The position numbers were made by a program, and so were the translations under genes. The notes beneath the pieces were generated by a model. That model saw only the letters and a list, made by a program, of their open reading frames with translations. It made no database searches and was not told where the DNA came from. A stretch of DNA of 64,000 bases from Verrucomicrobia bacterium LW23 (lineage in GTDB: Bacteria; Verrucomicrobiota; Verrucomicrobiia; Methylacidiphilales; UBA1321): assembly GCA_003054695.1 (NCBI GenBank), contig QAZA01000023.1:62001-126000 (forward strand). The letters run 5' to 3'. Position 1 is the stretch's first letter. Each line of letters begins with the position of its first letter. Below are positions 6,651-64,000 of this stretch, one piece after another.

Positions 6651-7383
6651 ACGACGCTACAAAGACTTCCCCGCCAAAGCTGTGCGCCAGGGACAGCGTC
6701 AGGCCGCGCAGCAGCTCCGCATTGCCGCGATGGAGATGAAAGAGGAGATTGCCCACCTGCACCTTCTCTCCATCCCACGTCTCGTCGGGCACGTCGTCCG
6801 CCCCAAAGCACACGGAATAAGGCGGGCCTTTCTCCCCTTCGTCCTGGCCAAGCACGGAGAGCGACAGCACCATCTCGGGCAAGTCCATCTTCTCGCGGAT
6901 GGCGCTCAGTTCGGCCGTCAGGGATTTCTCCAGCTCCTCAAACCGCGCCACCAGCACCGCCGTTGCCGCCAGCTGTATGGTGGCATCGGGCAGGGCTCCC
7001 ACGCGCGGAAACAGCGTCGGATTCTTCTCCCCAACCAGCGCGCTCGGCTGCTCCGAAAAGTCCTCCGTGGCTGCGGAGGCGATGATGACACTGCTGCCAA
7101 AGCACCGCGCTACCGTCAAGTGCAGGCGGGAGCCCTGCAACAGCGCAAGATGCTCCGGCAGAACGCGTAGCGTAACATCCCCCACCATTGCATGCACCCG
7201 GCCGCTGTCCGTGGCAAGCTCCTCGCTCACATCGCGCAGCAGGTAAGGCGGCCCCTCGTGGCCGGGCACCTGCCGGCCCGGGTGCAGGAGCGGGATGCTG
7301 CCAAAATGGCTTACCAACTCGGCCCGGTTACGCAGGATCTCCAGCGCGGCGGACGAAGCAGGGATGACGGGGGTTGTGCTCAT
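6649..7383 (-). CDS. Hypothetical protein, not recognised
   Basis: 244 residues, no signal peptide or membrane segment, and mixed alpha/beta composition. It starts MSTTPVIPASSAALEILRN; the middle holds a probable helical segment (ARFEELEKSLTAELSAIREKMDL) that could form a short coiled coil, and the C-terminus has a repeated hydrophobic pattern (VGNLLFHLHRGNAELLRG). I recognise no family. ATG 7383 has GGAG 5 nt upstream and is preferred over the in-frame GTG at 7389. It converges with the cNMP-binding gene and lies just downstream of a structured repeat. The codon pattern is normal for the window, so I believe it is a real gene. Confidence 0.6.
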   Translation of the reverse strand: MSTTPVIPASSAALEILRNRAELVSHFGSIPLLHPGRQVPGHEGPPYLLRDVSEELATDSGRVHAMVGDVTLRVLPEHLALLQGSRLHLTVARCFGSSVIIASAATEDFSEQPSALVGEKNPTLFPRVGALPDATIQLAATAVLVARFEELEKSLTAELSAIREKMDLPEMVLSLSVLGQDEGEKGPPYSVCFGADDVPDETWDGEKVQVGNLLFHLHRGNAELLRGLTLSLAHSFGGEVFVAS

Positions 7384-58870: not shown

Positions 58871-61800
58871 TCAACTCTTTCCAAACGCCGCCGTGTACCC
58901 ACGGTCCACACTGCAATCCATGTCCTCCACCATCAGAATCGGCCGGCCCGTCTCGTCGCTCACGTACACGTCGCAGGCAATGTGCGTACGGTCGTGAGCG
59001 CGAATCATAACCTCCACGGTATAAATATCTTGCAATCGGGCCGCCCGATACACGCGGAAGCCGCCGTACCGCGACGGCAGGCAGGGCGCCTGCAAATGCT
59101 CAATGCTCCACAACATCAGCAACTGCACGCTCCCCTCCAGCAACAGCGGATCAACATGCCACATGGGCGATGCCGGCTCCGCCATCCACGCGGCCGGCTC
59201 CGGCGCCGCCCGCACGGTGCCGCTGATGCCTCGCGTGCCAAGTCCGTGGATCGTCTCGATGCAGTAAAGATCGGGCCCGTGGTAAAGCAAGGTCTCCATC
59301 GCCTCCCGCACAGGGCGAGGGTAAGGGTGCGACGCAAGGTTCGGCAAAGTCGGCACAGGTGCCTGCGGCGGAGGCGCTTGCGACAGAAGCATCGTGGCCC
59401 GGTAATACGCCTGTTCCTGCTCGCTCTGAAGCTCCACCGGCACCTCGTAGAGCCCATTGCTTTTGCGCTGCGCCGCCCCGGCCGCAAGTCGCAGCCTCAT
59501 CGCGCGCTCGCTCTCGCCAAACTCCTCCAGCGCCACAGGCCGCAGCGCGCGAAAATTGCGGCAACCGTGCAGCGTCATCTCCGGCGAGTGCCGCAGCGCC
59601 GCCTCGGCCATCCAGTTAAGCCCCACCGAGAGCGGCAGCACCGGCCGTTCCTTCAGAACATGCGACCGCAGAAAGGGATGCGTCTCGACGGAAATCTCCC
59701 GCTCCGTCACCAGCGCCAACCCCATCGCTACCCCCAAATGCAACCGTGGCCCGAGGTGCAGCCCCGTACCTCCTCCCCCCGCACTGCTTCCGCCGGCGCC
59801 GGAGGTGGAGGTCCGAACCATCCCCCCAACCAGGCCCGTCGGCCGGCGCCGCATGATGGGGGCAGGCAATGGCTCATCCTGTTGCTGTACAACGGTTTCC
59901 GACGCAGGCACCTCATGCGGCGCAGTGTCTGGCTCGGCCACATCGCAAGCGGGAGAGACATCCAATGTCCCTGCTTCTCCGGCAAGCTTGGAATCCAGCG
60001 CATCGACGTCCCCATCAGCCTGTACAGAAGCTATTGATCCCGTGGCATTTACATCCTTCACCTCCACGTCCCCCGGCTCCACCCCGGCCTGCGCTGCGTT
60101 CAGTGCGCGAAGGACTTCCGCAACCTGGCCAAGTTGTGCTCCTGCAATATCTTCCGCAGGGGGAGGCCGTTGTGCGGCGGGGTGCCGCAAAAGCAGGGCC
60201 TGCCACACGCCCTCCAGGCGCGCGGCATCCAACCCAAGATCTTGATCCAACGTAAGTTCCACATCCAGAAACTCGCGGGGATACTCACACTCCACTGCCA
60301 GCAGATCGAGAAAGTCCTCAACCACAACATCCTGGAAGAGAGGAGCTTCCACTGATTCCGCTACGACTTCGCGCTCCCTCTCATCCATCTCCGCCTCATG
60401 GCCGGAGTCCTCTGCAGTAGTCGTAACATCCTCGCTATCTGCATCTTCCGAGACATTCGCGACACATTCAGGCTCATCGTCGGGACTAGAGGGCCCAGGG
60501 CCGCTACCGCCATCAGAATTGAAGTCATCCTCATCTGTATCTTCTTCACCCTCAAAGCCTTCTTCAACCTCCCCCAGCGAAGGCTCGTCCTCGGATGCAA
60601 CGGCGCTAAGAGATGCGTTTGTCGACACAACATCCTCCAGCGCAAAAGCTTCCACACCTTCATCCGAGTCTGCATCCAGCCCTTCCTCCGAGGCGACGGC
60701 GCGAGCCTCCGCAAAAGCCGCGGCCGTGCGCTGCGCTTCGATCTGCTGCACGCGCGAGCGATACAGCTCCTGCACCGCTCGCTGCGCCGCCTCCTGGTTG
60801 GCCAAAAACTGCCGGAACATTTCCGCCGTTTGCGCATGTAGTTGTCGCAGAGTCTCATGCGCTGCCGCATACTCTTTCTCCAGCAACACATCCCCCTCGT
60901 CCCGAGGCGGTCCGGCCAAAGGAGGTGGCAGATGAGCGATGGCCAGGGAGGGCGGAGGGACATACAATGTCTCTGACGCAGGAAGGGCCGGCAACCCAGG
61001 GACAAGCGATGTCCCTATCCCCGGGGTGGAACGCCCAGCAGGGACATAAAATGTCCCTGACGCCGGCACACCAGGTGTTATCATAGCTCCCTGCCCCGCA
61101 GGCACTTGTACAGCTCCAGCTGTAGGGTACGCATAATAGCCGGGATACTGCGCCGGCACCGGAACAGCCCCGCGGCCACTGCTTCCATTCTCCCCGTTGG
61201 CAGCCTTGCGCGACTCTTGTCGCGAACGCCCGGCGGAGCGGCCCGTCGGAGCCGGCACAGCTCCCGCAGGCAGCACAACCAGCGGCACTAACAGACGCCC
61301 GGGCATCGTCGGCCGCACTTGCGTAACATCATGAAAGAGAGAAGGATGCGCCGCTCCCGGCCAAAGCTCCAGGCGGACATGGCTCCCCAGCGCCGCAAGC
61401 TGCGCAAGAGCCTTTGCCAGCGGAAGCATCCCCCCCGGAAAACCCGTAAACGCCTGGGGCGCAGCTTCCTCCGCGTCCAGCGAAAGCGCGGCATGGGGAT
61501 GTTCACCCAGTTCCTCGCGCACTTCGCGGGTCAGCGTCGTGCCGGGGCCGATCTCCAGAAAGATGCGCGTGCCGTCCTGGTACAGCTGCCGAATCGCCTC
61601 GCGCAGCGAGCTGCTCTCTACAGCCTGCCCCACCAAATGCTCGCGCAATAGTGTGCTATCCTCCGGCAAAGGCATTGAGCCGGAACGACTTGGAGCATAA
61701 ACAGCAACTCGCGGCGGGGCAATATCCAGCCCCTCCACGTTGCGATTCCATAACGAGCGCATTGGGGCCTCCTGCAATGCACTAGGCAAAGAGCTGAGCG

Positions 61801-64000
61801 GCAGCTCATCGCAAACGATGGCGCGCTGCAGGCAAATACGTTGAGCCCGAAGGACTTCCGGGCGCGGACCAAACACGATCCACGCCGTTTGCTGCTGTCT
61901 CAGGCCGAGATTCAGCCGCTCCTCGCGCAGCACGCGGCGAATCGTCTCGAGCGGAGCGCGGATGGAGAGGGCCGCCACCGGCTCGTTCAGCTCGTGCATC
62001 AGGTGAAATTCCGTGAGGCAACGGGCGCGCATGGCGGCCAGGAAAAGGAGCGTGGCGCGATCGAAACAGCCGGCCGCGGCCAGTGCCGCCAGCTCGCCGC
62101 AACCCGCTCCCGCCACGGCATTTGCGTCGATCTCGAACTGCTGCAGCATGCCCAGCATAGCCAGCGATGCCACGGTCACGGCGGGCTGTGCGGTATCGGG
62201 GCTGGCCAGGCCGGTGGGCTGGCCCTTGCCCGGCTGGTTGCGGGGGTGGGACATGGTATGTCCCTCCATGGCGGGCGGCGCCGGCCAGGGGTAGATGTGA
62301 TCGGCCAGCAGGGGCGATTCTACGCCGGTTTGCAGCTCCGTGTGCGCCATTACGTCAAACGCGACGGGGAACGCGCATACGGCATTGGCGGCCATCCCCG
62401 GCGCTGCCGCAGCGACGTCCGGAAAAAGCATGGCGACACGGCCCGGAGGCGGGCCGTAGCCGTGGAAGATGTTCTCCGGCAACGCCCAGGACTCGGCGGG
62501 GTTAGCGGGGAGGAAATCGAGGGCAATACGCAGCTGGCGGCGCAGCTCGCGCGCGTCGCGGCTTACGATGACGAGGCGGTTCTGGTGCTGTCGGGAGAAC
62601 GTCGAGCGGGAGTCGATGGCGCGTTGGGAGAGAGCCTGGGCTGTAATGCCCTGGTTAAACGCTTTATCAAGATCTTTGAGCTGCGAAATCAGCGGACGGC
62701 TGGACTTGGCGGAGAATGCGAAAATCTCCACCGAATCGGCGCGCACGGGTTCCACCCGCGTCGGCTGGCTTTCCTCCAGCAAAAAGCAGTAGTGTGTGCT
62801 GTTGTTGGGGTTATGCCCCCACAGCCCCGCGCGGCGTTCGCGTCCGGGCACCGTAAACCAGGGGCGCGGGTTACCGGCATCGGTAACGATGGGCGGGGGG
62901 TTGCCGGTAAGCATACCGGCGAGGGATTGCGAGGAGGTGGGAGGGCGCTGCGATGCGGCAGTGGCGGGGACATGGTTTGTCCCTCCGGCCCGCGCAGACT
63001 CTCCGAAGGCGCCTGTTGGCAACAACTTATGATGAAGGCTGAGCGCCAGCCTGATCACTCCGCACACGCCGGCCACCGCGCCCAGCCTGCCGTAGAGCGG
63101 CGAGGGTGTGGCCACCACGCAACGGGGCGCGGCCTCGGCGGCGGAGGCGAGGCCGTGCCAGCCCATCCACGCAAGCGGGACGACCTCCGCGCCCGGCATA
63201 GGGCTTTGCACCTCAACGAATTCCGCGCCATCTGGCCGGATGCCGGCTCCCTGGCAGGCACCTTGCCAGGCCTTGTGGGCCGCGGCGAGGATGCGGGAGC
63301 GACCGGGTGCGTCGTCGGTTTGGGTTGCGGAGCCGGAGCCGCGGATGACGGCCCAGATGCGGTCGCCGTCGCGAACAGCCTCGCTTAAACGTTTGAGCAC
63401 AACCAGAGCGATACCTTCTTCCTCCGGCGGGCGACCTGTGTGGGCCCAGGCGGCGTCCGGGGACGGCGGAGCGCCCGGGCCTACTTGTGTGGCTGCAAGT
63501 GCCACAGCACCAGCAGCATCCACAATGGCCTGGCGCTCGGCGTCGGGCAGGAGCTGCACGCCGCCGGCCACCATGATGTCGCAGCGACCCGATTCAAGTT
63601 CGTCGACAGCAAGCTGGATGGCGGCAAGGCCGGCTGAAGGGCCGGAATCAACGGCGCCGTTGAGACCGCGCAGACCTATGGCCTGGGCGATGAACCGGAC
63701 GGCCGACTCGTTGTCGGAAACAGCTGTGCCTGAGGGGATTGCGGAGTCAGGGTCGGTTGCGGAGGCGTGGTCGGATTCGTCGCCCTCGGCGTCGTTGCCG
63801 TTTTCGTCGGGCGACGGCGCGACTTGCTGGGGCGCTTCCATAACTTCCGCAACCGCAGCTGCATAGGGGGAGGCGGAGGTGGCCGGCGTTGCGGATTCTG
63901 AGGCATGGGTGAAGCCGAGGACAAGGCCGGCGCGGTCGTCGGGCGAGGCGGCCAGGGCACTGGGGACATTCGATGTCCCTGCGTGTTGTAAAGCCTCTCG
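58871..64000 (-). CDS. Polyketide/PUFA-synthase-like megaprotein with missing catalytic residues (partial, right edge)
   Basis: At least 1709 residues, open at the edge. In order: ketosynthase-like domain (64000 to about 62770); acyltransferase-like domain (about 62440-61330); Pro/Gly-rich linker; coiled coil LLEKEYAAAHETLRQLHAQT (about 60900-60700); acidic linker; carrier-protein-like domain (about 60350-60180); hot-dog dehydratase-like domain (about 59720-58880). The order and the coiled coil after AT resemble Pfa/heterocyst-glycolipid-type synthases. Catalytic residues are lost: KS DTACSSSL reads DSGPSAGL (Cys to Pro) and the HGTGT His is absent; AT GHSxGE reads GAGCGE (Ser to Gly); ACP DLGIDS reads DLGLDA (Ser to Ala), checked in the bases at about 60233. 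The dehydratase keeps HPFLRSH but has LLEGSVQ where LLD-x3-Q is usual. The frame is free of stops, so it is a maintained protein, not a decayed one. Function unknown; perhaps a scaffold or chain-length-factor-like partner. Confidence 0.8.
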   Translation of the reverse strand, partial: REALQHAGTSNVPSALAASPDDRAGLVLGFTHASESATPATSASPYAAAVAEVMEAPQQVAPSPDENGNDAEGDESDHASATDPDSAIPSGTAVSDNESAVRFIAQAIGLRGLNGAVDSGPSAGLAAIQLAVDELESGRCDIMVAGGVQLLPDAERQAIVDAAGAVALAATQVGPGAPPSPDAAWAHTGRPPEEEGIALVVLKRLSEAVRDGDRIWAVIRGSGSATQTDDAPGRSRILAAAHKAWQGACQGAGIRPDGAEFVEVQSPMPGAEVVPLAWMGWHGLASAAEAAPRCVVATPSPLYGRLGAVAGVCGVIRLALSLHHKLLPTGAFGESARAGGTNHVPATAASQRPPTSSQSLAGMLTGNPPPIVTDAGNPRPWFTVPGRERRAGLWGHNPNNSTHYCFLLEESQPTRVEPVRADSVEIFAFSAKSSRPLISQLKDLDKAFNQGITAQALSQRAIDSRSTFSRQHQNRLVIVSRDARELRRQLRIALDFLPANPAESWALPENIFHGYGPPPGRVAMLFPDVAAAAPGMAANAVCAFPVAFDVMAHTELQTGVESPLLADHIYPWPAPPAMEGHTMSHPRNQPGKGQPTGLASPDTAQPAVTVASLAMLGMLQQFEIDANAVAGAGCGELAALAAAGCFDRATLLFLAAMRARCLTEFHLMHELNEPVAALSIRAPLETIRRVLREERLNLGLRQQQTAWIVFGPRPEVLRAQRICLQRAIVCDELPLSSLPSALQEAPMRSLWNRNVEGLDIAPPRVAVYAPSRSGSMPLPEDSTLLREHLVGQAVESSSLREAIRQLYQDGTRIFLEIGPGTTLTREVREELGEHPHAALSLDAEEAAPQAFTGFPGGMLPLAKALAQLAALGSHVRLELWPGAAHPSLFHDVTQVRPTMPGRLLVPLVVLPAGAVPAPTGRSAGRSRQESRKAANGENGSSGRGAVPVPAQYPGYYAYPTAGAVQVPAGQGAMITPGVPASGTFYVPAGRSTPGIGTSLVPGLPALPASETLYVPPPSLAIAHLPPPLAGPPRDEGDVLLEKEYAAAHETLRQLHAQTAEMFRQFLANQEAAQRAVQELYRSRVQQIEAQRTAAAFAEARAVASEEGLDADSDEGVEAFALEDVVSTNASLSAVASEDEPSLGEVEEGFEGEEDTDEDDFNSDGGSGPGPSSPDDEPECVANVSEDADSEDVTTTAEDSGHEAEMDEREREVVAESVEAPLFQDVVVEDFLDLLAVECEYPREFLDVELTLDQDLGLDAARLEGVWQALLLRHPAAQRPPPAEDIAGAQLGQVAEVLRALNAAQAGVEPGDVEVKDVNATGSIASVQADGDVDALDSKLAGEAGTLDVSPACDVAEPDTAPHEVPASETVVQQQDEPLPAPIMRRRPTGLVGGMVRTSTSGAGGSSAGGGGTGLHLGPRLHLGVAMGLALVTEREISVETHPFLRSHVLKERPVLPLSVGLNWMAEAALRHSPEMTLHGCRNFRALRPVALEEFGESERAMRLRLAAGAAQRKSNGLYEVPVELQSEQEQAYYRATMLLSQAPPPQAPVPTLPNLASHPYPRPVREAMETLLYHGPDLYCIETIHGLGTRGISGTVRAAPEPAAWMAEPASPMWHVDPLLLEGSVQLLMLWSIEHLQAPCLPSRYGGFRVYRAARLQDIYTVEVMIRAHDRTHIACDVYVSDETGRPILMVEDMDCSVDRGYTAAFGKS
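59955..59971. repeat. GGGACAT-N3-ATGTCCC palindrome, site 1
   Basis: GAGACAT-CCA-ATGTCCC, one mismatch from the perfect palindrome. In the gene it encodes GTLDVS. Confidence 0.85.
60957..60973. repeat. GGGACAT-N3-ATGTCCC palindrome, site 2
   Basis: GGGACAT-ACA-ATGTCTC, one mismatch. Encodes ETLYVP. Confidence 0.85.
60999..61015. repeat. GGGACAT-N3-ATGTCCC palindrome, site 3
   Basis: GGGACAA-GCG-ATGTCCC, one mismatch. Encodes GTSLVP. Confidence 0.85.
61041..61057. repeat. GGGACAT-N3-ATGTCCC palindrome, site 4
   Basis: GGGACAT-AAA-ATGTCCC, perfect. Encodes GTFYVP. Sites 2, 3 and 4 are exactly 42 bp apart. Confidence 0.9.
62248..62264. repeat. GGGACAT-N3-ATGTCCC palindrome, site 5
   Basis: GGGACAT-GGT-ATGTCCC, perfect. 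It lies in another codon phase than the rest and encodes GHTMSH. Confidence 0.9.
62967..62983. repeat. GGGACAT-N3-ATGTCCC palindrome, site 6
   Basis: GGGACAT-GGT-TTGTCCC, one mismatch. Encodes GTNHVP. Confidence 0.85.
63963..63979. repeat. GGGACAT-N3-ATGTCCC palindrome, site 7
   Basis: GGGACAT-TCG-ATGTCCC, perfect. Encodes GTSNVP, 21 bp from the window edge. Confidence 0.9.

Follow-up and report, generated by a model that had tools for sequence, protein, structure and literature searches.

The seven copies of the palindrome GGGACAT-N3-ATGTCCC found within one PKS-like gene of Verrucomicrobia bacterium LW23 belong to a palindrome family that is specific to LW23 among the sampled genomes. Each copy consists of two fixed half-sites, spaced by roughly a helical turn (~11 bp), with a free centre, and what is kept is the double-stranded DNA sequence. 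The copies sit where added DNA harms little, i.e. in lineage-specific linkers or loops and just past stop codons. As to their origin, there is in our view about an even chance that the seven sites are part of a REP-like mini-palindrome family added in the LW23 lineage, the arms of which would be read by a putative two-fold symmetric protein or enzyme.

The PKS-like gene lies at the end of the stretch of DNA analysed as a whole (64 kb, hereafter the window). Its model spans C23:120871-126306, running beyond the window end to C23:126306, and Pfam recognised a ketoacyl-synthase (KS) remnant, an acyltransferase (AT) and a dehydratase (DH) in the open reading frame. An earlier note on the window had reported seven sites there, three perfect and four with one mismatch, and all were recovered at the coordinates it had given:

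58871..64000, minus strand: PKS-like open reading frame with all seven sites (ORF call, gene model and Pfam)
59955..59971, no strand: site 1, GAGACATCCAATGTCCC, one mismatch (position 2, the frequent G>A variant); phase 0 (GTLDVS)
60957..60973, no strand: site 2, GGGACATACAATGTCTC, position-2 variant; phase 0 (ETLYVP); opens the trio spaced by 42 bp
60999..61015, no strand: site 3, GGGACAAGCGATGTCCC, position-7 variant; phase 0 (GTSLVP)
61041..61057, no strand: site 4, GGGACATAAAATGTCCC, perfect; phase 0 (GTFYVP)
62248..62264, no strand: site 5, GGGACATGGTATGTCCC, perfect; phase 2 (GHTMSH)
62967..62983, no strand: site 6, GGGACATGGTTTGTCCC, position-7 variant; phase 0 (GTNHVP)
63963..63979, no strand: site 7, GGGACATTCGATGTCCC, perfect; phase 0 (GTSNVP)

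As the note had also described, six of the seven sites shared a codon phase (GTxxVP-type) and the one at 62248 was in another (GHTMSH), while the 42-bp spacing of the sites at 60957, 60999 and 61041 was exact. Its statements that no other copy occurs in the 64 kb and that chance would provide fewer than one were likewise borne out: none was found elsewhere, even with up to two mismatches, and dinucleotide shuffles of the window yielded 0.20 sites each, with a maximum of 3 (7 observed). Within the trio (60957-61057), the flanks of the first and third units have TGACGC in common and, judged by eye, agree at about half of 25 bases, a likeness that would fit an old 42-bp duplication in which flanks drifted and palindromes stayed.

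Contrary to the link seen in the earlier note, the motif is not tied to the PKS-like gene, since the genome (6.61 Mb in 56 unordered contigs) contained 188 sites when one mismatch was allowed, in host genes of very different function; the reversed control pattern gave one. A link with PKS domain borders was unsupported as well. Perfect copies numbered 65, and the relaxed form GRGACA-N5-TGTCYC occurred 209 times, against about two expected from base composition. An artefact of chance or of codon bias in the PKS gene is therefore practically inconceivable (7 versus 0.2 sites in the window, 209 versus about 2 in the genome). Many copies spread evenly and without link to this gene family would, according to the note, refute its reading; this was half borne out, as many unlinked copies were found but their spread was strongly clustered.

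Relatives were nearly devoid of the palindrome. Each of 11 genomes of the same family displayed 0 or 1 site, no more than one perfect site was present in any of 387 further genomes of the phylum, and each of 61 relatives from the order at most two copies of GRGACA-N5-TGTCYC. The tandem form was absent from 84,980 named genomes, a set that possibly excludes LW23 itself and its near relatives, and small loci from relatives revealed no palindrome family comparable to the LW23 motif. Perfect sites occurred in 52 viral contigs, of which only one, the IMG/VR contig L052, displayed two (positions 7339-7377, 22 bp apart). A viral source was rejected because 52 contigs are not above chance, according to a rough estimate of the size of the collection.

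The anatomy and placement of the sites were read in detail over 2.44 Mb (37% of the genome), using home-made gene models and our own alignments; many of the statistics were chosen after the data had been seen. An intact GRGACA-N5-TGTCYC core was present at 108 sites and a further arm mismatch at 23 others, off-register spacer controls giving 3-21. The extended consensus was CAGRGACAY-NNN-RTGTCYCTG (17-21 bp), with a spacer of strictly 3 nt and a near-random composition of this centre. Nearly all variants affected position 2 (G>A) or position 7 (T>C or A), mostly on one side only, and the GACA/TGTC core was almost never mutated, including at third codon positions in phase 0. Outward from the 17-mer, the information per flank position was 1.29, 0.65, 0.17 and 0.10 bits, then about zero, so that the signal vanished some 4 bp outside. 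Position 7 and the following base were not independent: G came next in 25 of the 31 cases with C at position 7, compared with 60 of the 152 with T (p 4e-5). This base pattern (half-site spacing, free centre, graded flanks, position 7-8 dependence) suggests that a predicted two-fold symmetric protein recognises the sites as double-stranded DNA. A link between GACACG half-sites and CpG methylation is a thought only. No GTAG/CGTC tag was present, the conserved flank ending with TG, and flank identity showed no excess at any offset that would betray a target-site duplication. A transposon end with target duplication and a centre drawn from the flank were both discarded since the flanks give no signal.

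Just over half of the 108 sites (58) were in genes and 50 were intergenic, in a sequence that is 82% coding. The coding sites occupied phases 0, 2 and 1 in 34, 22 and 2 cases, respectively. These figures bear out the earlier argument, drawn from site 5, that conservation acts on the DNA palindrome and not on the peptide, as do third codon positions without drift, a near-random centre and an almost unmutated core. The opposite situation, in which only the peptide would be conserved and synonymous drift would break the palindrome, was not encountered within the LW23 genome, and conservation at the peptide level is ruled out by the several phases, the fixed third positions and the intergenic copies.

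Intergenic sites were often no more than some 50 bp away from a stop codon, and 45 of the 50 were in non-divergent gaps; divergent gaps, which represent 28% of intergenic bases, held the other five. The sites formed tight clusters, each with about four members over a few kb, separated by long stretches without any, and isolated sites were rare. A neighbour at 80 bp to 5 kb was recorded for 91% of them, against 29% under random placement. Flanks of cluster mates were no more similar than those of unrelated sites, and local GC equalled genome GC. No chromosome-scale pattern of clusters was obvious in these unordered contigs, where GC skew is weak. A second and shorter level of organization was an exact 18-bp step, observed in 20 chains of neighbours (17 doublets, two triplets and one array of six units). 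At least one inner half-site was weakened at position 7 in 15 of the 17 doublets (p ~4e-5), and the centres of 18-bp neighbours were somewhat more alike than those of random pairs, though seldom identical. Tandem duplication of the motif is most evident in the array (L039:19486-19592, or C25:74486-74592), where most of the six 18-bp units have GCG as centre. On a larger scale, C9:56280-106255 and C10:43254-93229 (inverted) displayed the same protein matches with identical scores at mirrored positions, which suggests a large inverted near-identical segment, due either to duplication or to assembly redundancy.

The genes that house the motif share no function. They include PUFA-synthase-like, AddA/UvrD-like, SNF2, HrpA-like, DinG-like, UDG and ScpA genes, as well as those for acetoacetyl-CoA ligase (AacS), AccA, a pseudouridine synthase, PrmA and a prophage-type terminase (PrmA and AccA being named from sequence and not from Pfam), while gatCAB, dapF/dapA and purB are among the neighbours of intergenic sites. 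Two PUFA-synthase/PKS-like loci are heavily marked inside their genes, with about nine sites at C39:191607-206190 and the seven of the window at 58871-64000, and motif clusters also include the genes AacS, thiolase and AccA of acyl-CoA metabolism; this recurrence is possibly a coincidence of gene length.

Alignments showed that many coding sites coincide with residues that orthologues lack. In the DinG-like protein, four sites fell within three inserts of 23, 28 and 11 amino acids, and all 27 orthologues, from many phyla, were shorter there by 23, 25 and 9-11 amino acids in the measured windows. The prophage-type terminase contains a stretch of 21 amino acids with a doublet, missing from a Microcystis phage terminase. 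Beside its first site, AacS was 6 amino acids longer than two family orthologues, and at its second only 3. In-frame inserts specific to LW23 were recorded at sites of DinG, SNF2, GT9, AccA and the terminase, some of them much longer than 18 bp. In seven alignable genes, 11 of the 16 coding sites overlapped such inserts, which make up 6.7% of the residues (manual count from alignments). Inserts of this kind numbered 22 per 4,167 amino acids in motif genes and 4 per 2,569 in four non-cluster controls, a small set imperfectly matched to the motif genes. Addition of DNA is not the sole route, since sites in PrmA, in the acyltransferase RGxxM of the PUFA-synthase-like gene and the third site of the terminase were on conserved columns with little or no change in length.

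Under the REP-like reading, a mini-element would have multiplied in the LW23 lineage through added short palindromic DNA, with an addition step of 18 bp that would fit several of these cases. Its arms would have stayed intact because a putative two-fold symmetric DNA-binding protein or enzyme recognises GRGACA-N5-TGTCYC, and this protein may itself drive or select the spread of copies. We consider this reading the most likely since the distribution resembles that of published REPs, which are found at 3' ends, in convergent and unidirectional gaps and as dimers, and within repair, helicase and pseudouridine-synthase genes (PMC3733652). Among the roles suggested in the earlier note, a spreading mini-palindrome tolerated in linkers is the best fit; the dimeric binding site also suggested there is its main rival and may form part of one story with it. 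Several observations fit the REP-like reading poorly. Relics would be expected of a selfish repeat that multiplies freely, yet decayed copies are few; the near-random centre is not inherited between copies; neither target-site duplication nor flank likeness among cluster copies accompanies them; some sites are on conserved columns without clear net insertion, and some inserts far exceed 18 bp. Moreover, the single RAYT-like gene is flanked by another family and the GTAG/CGTC tag is missing.

The main rival holds that the sites are targets of a lineage-specific chromosome-organising or nucleoid-tethering protein (Noc-, SlmA- or MatP-like) and are kept by selection, a dimer sitting on each 17-21 bp palindrome, a cluster of about four sites forming one binding domain, and sites being placed where coding tolerates them. 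This is a tentative alternative, to which we give appreciably less credence. The features of the palindrome speak for it: half-sites ~11 bp apart, a sharply bounded core with graded flanks and a free centre, and the C-to-G dependence at position 7 that is expected of protein recognition. So do the exact 18-bp doublets with their weakened inner half-site, the rarity of isolated sites, the sites on conserved codons without net insertion, and the precedents of SlmA, matS and Noc sites. Such systems are, however, normally common to related genera, whereas all family relatives lack sites here; the model does not call for a bias to lineage-specific inserts and 3' ends; clusters formed no obvious chromosome-scale pattern (in unordered contigs with weak GC skew), and no cognate protein was found. 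A ParB paralogue was dismissed as the binder, given that no site was present in the flanks of the one clear-scoring member, nor in those read for weaker matches. The REP-like and chromosome-organising readings overlap in their need for a protein reading the arms; they differ in whether it propagates the sites or only makes use of them. A mobile origin must explain few decayed copies and a variable centre, and an architectural role must explain site-free relatives and the presence of most alignable coding sites in added DNA. A bolder reading would be a young chromosome-architecture system of the LW23 lineage, with a dimer, about 209 sites added across the genome (unrelated reading frames included) in clusters of about four, 18-bp doublets with tuned inner half-sites, and proteins lengthened to host a DNA signal; we regard it as rather unlikely.

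Three further explanations appear improbable. That the sites are operators for the large regulon of a single transcription regulator would agree with a palindromic dimer-type site and with the HTH regulator genes adjoining three clusters (XRE-cupin, L038:6353-6904; GntR/LacI-type, L130:241-1368; AraC, L027:972-1874), but divergent gaps are avoided, more than half of the sites are inside genes and the hosts share no function; the chances of this are slim. Slightly slimmer still are those of hairpins in RNA or in a single strand, whether terminator-like or transcribed as stem-loops of REP type. Although a stem of nine base pairs with a 3-nt loop can be drawn on paper and many sites lie past stop codons, pairs changed on both sides numbered six with three compensated, which is no compensatory pattern, and the wobble bias of the coding strand was absent (7 versus 8 at position 2, 6 versus 5 at position 7). 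Transitions were tolerated at position 2 and not at positions 3-5, Rfam gave only a tRNA match on six cluster loci, and no T run followed the directly read sites. A DNA-uptake-type signal kept by biased transformation, the least credible of the three, would account for an intact consensus with few relics that is specific to one genome and occurs in coding and intergenic DNA. It is countered by the low number of copies (~209 in 6.6 Mb, against roughly 1,900 uptake sequences in Neisseria (PMC3898611)), by tight clusters with long empty stretches, and by two-fold symmetry.

Mobilisation of the motif by a resident RAYT is unsupported. None of the five Y1_Tnp matches in the genome had the motif nearby, and the one at C25:144746 is flanked by inverted copies of another palindrome, CCCAGGGC-N4-GCCCTGGG. 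The locus concerned (C25:144615-145268; L095:1370 and L095:2004) comprises a RAYT-like Y1_Tnp frame of 351 amino acids between these inverted copies, and the palindrome has about ten perfect copies in the 2.44 Mb, all intergenic; apparently, this is a classical REPIN/RAYT system. The genome is rich in other inverted repeats. Those found de novo were mostly intergenic and, where read closely, had conserved flanks; they include AACCTC-N3-GAGGTT (window ~9607) and TGCATTT-N3-AAATGCA (window 7484 and 46893), and look like ordinary MITE/REPIN-type repeats.

Among known systems, REPs have in common with the motif short high-copy palindromes located just 3' of genes and in non-divergent gaps, dimers, and intragenic insertions often in DNA-repair, helicase and pseudouridine-synthase genes. 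The genome with the highest number of intragenic GTAG repeats was that of Opitutus terrae, another member of Verrucomicrobia (PMC3733652). In LW23, DNA-repair genes accounted for about six of 25 coding hosts (hand count, with an assumed background of 4%), which is a parallel and not a test. Unlike REPs, the LW23 motif has no GTAG/CGTC tag, wobble pattern, fixed loop or flanking RAYT, its core is almost free of decay, and about half of its copies are inside genes. It was therefore not filed as a REP/RAYT family, given the missing tag and the different palindrome around the RAYT-like gene.

Targets of Noc, SlmA and MatP are also many-copy palindromes (12-14 bp) that are not promoter-linked and occur in coding regions (PMC4726725, PMC3116907). 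The 14-bp palindrome of Noc is present about 70 times (PMC4726725); most SlmA sites fall within coding sequence, and the centre of matS measures 3 bp (PMC3116907). Judged from its base pattern, the LW23 motif would be compatible with a dedicated binder of this type. These targets number from 23 to about 70 and follow macrodomains, in contrast to the 209 copies, kb-scale clusters and 18-bp doublets that are confined to one genome here. The dRS3 element of Neisseria (ATTCCC-N8-GGGAAT, PMC3898611) likewise has two fixed 6-bp arms, a variable centre, hundreds of copies and arrays, but it is intergenic, within mosaic elements, and is a phage integrase target; no such link was seen in LW23. HIP1 of cyanobacteria is comparable as a genome-specific over-represented palindrome and differs in being uninterrupted, 8 bp long, very frequent and tied to methyltransferases recognising internal sequences (PMC4390886). 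Rickettsia palindromic elements (RPE) are the precedent for in-frame addition of palindromic DNA to protein-coding genes that are unrelated to each other. They measure ~150 bp and encode a conserved peptide (review PMC10969869), unlike the motif of 17-21 bp with two main reading phases and no conserved peptide, so that size and peptide exclude the LW23 family from the RPE.

The LW23 family offers a natural case in which a signal at the DNA level apparently adds residues to a DinG-type helicase, SNF2, AccA, a terminase and polyketide/PUFA synthases, and its exact motif provides a bait for the protein reading it. The family is also relevant to the preference of intragenic REPs for genes of DNA repair and RNA modification, given that like hosts recur here with an unrelated sequence. 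Dispersed bacterial palindromes are mostly longer, largely extragenic and often tied to RAYTs; that of LW23 is 17-21 bp long and sharply defined, has a free centre, and occurs in protein linkers about as often as in intergenic DNA.
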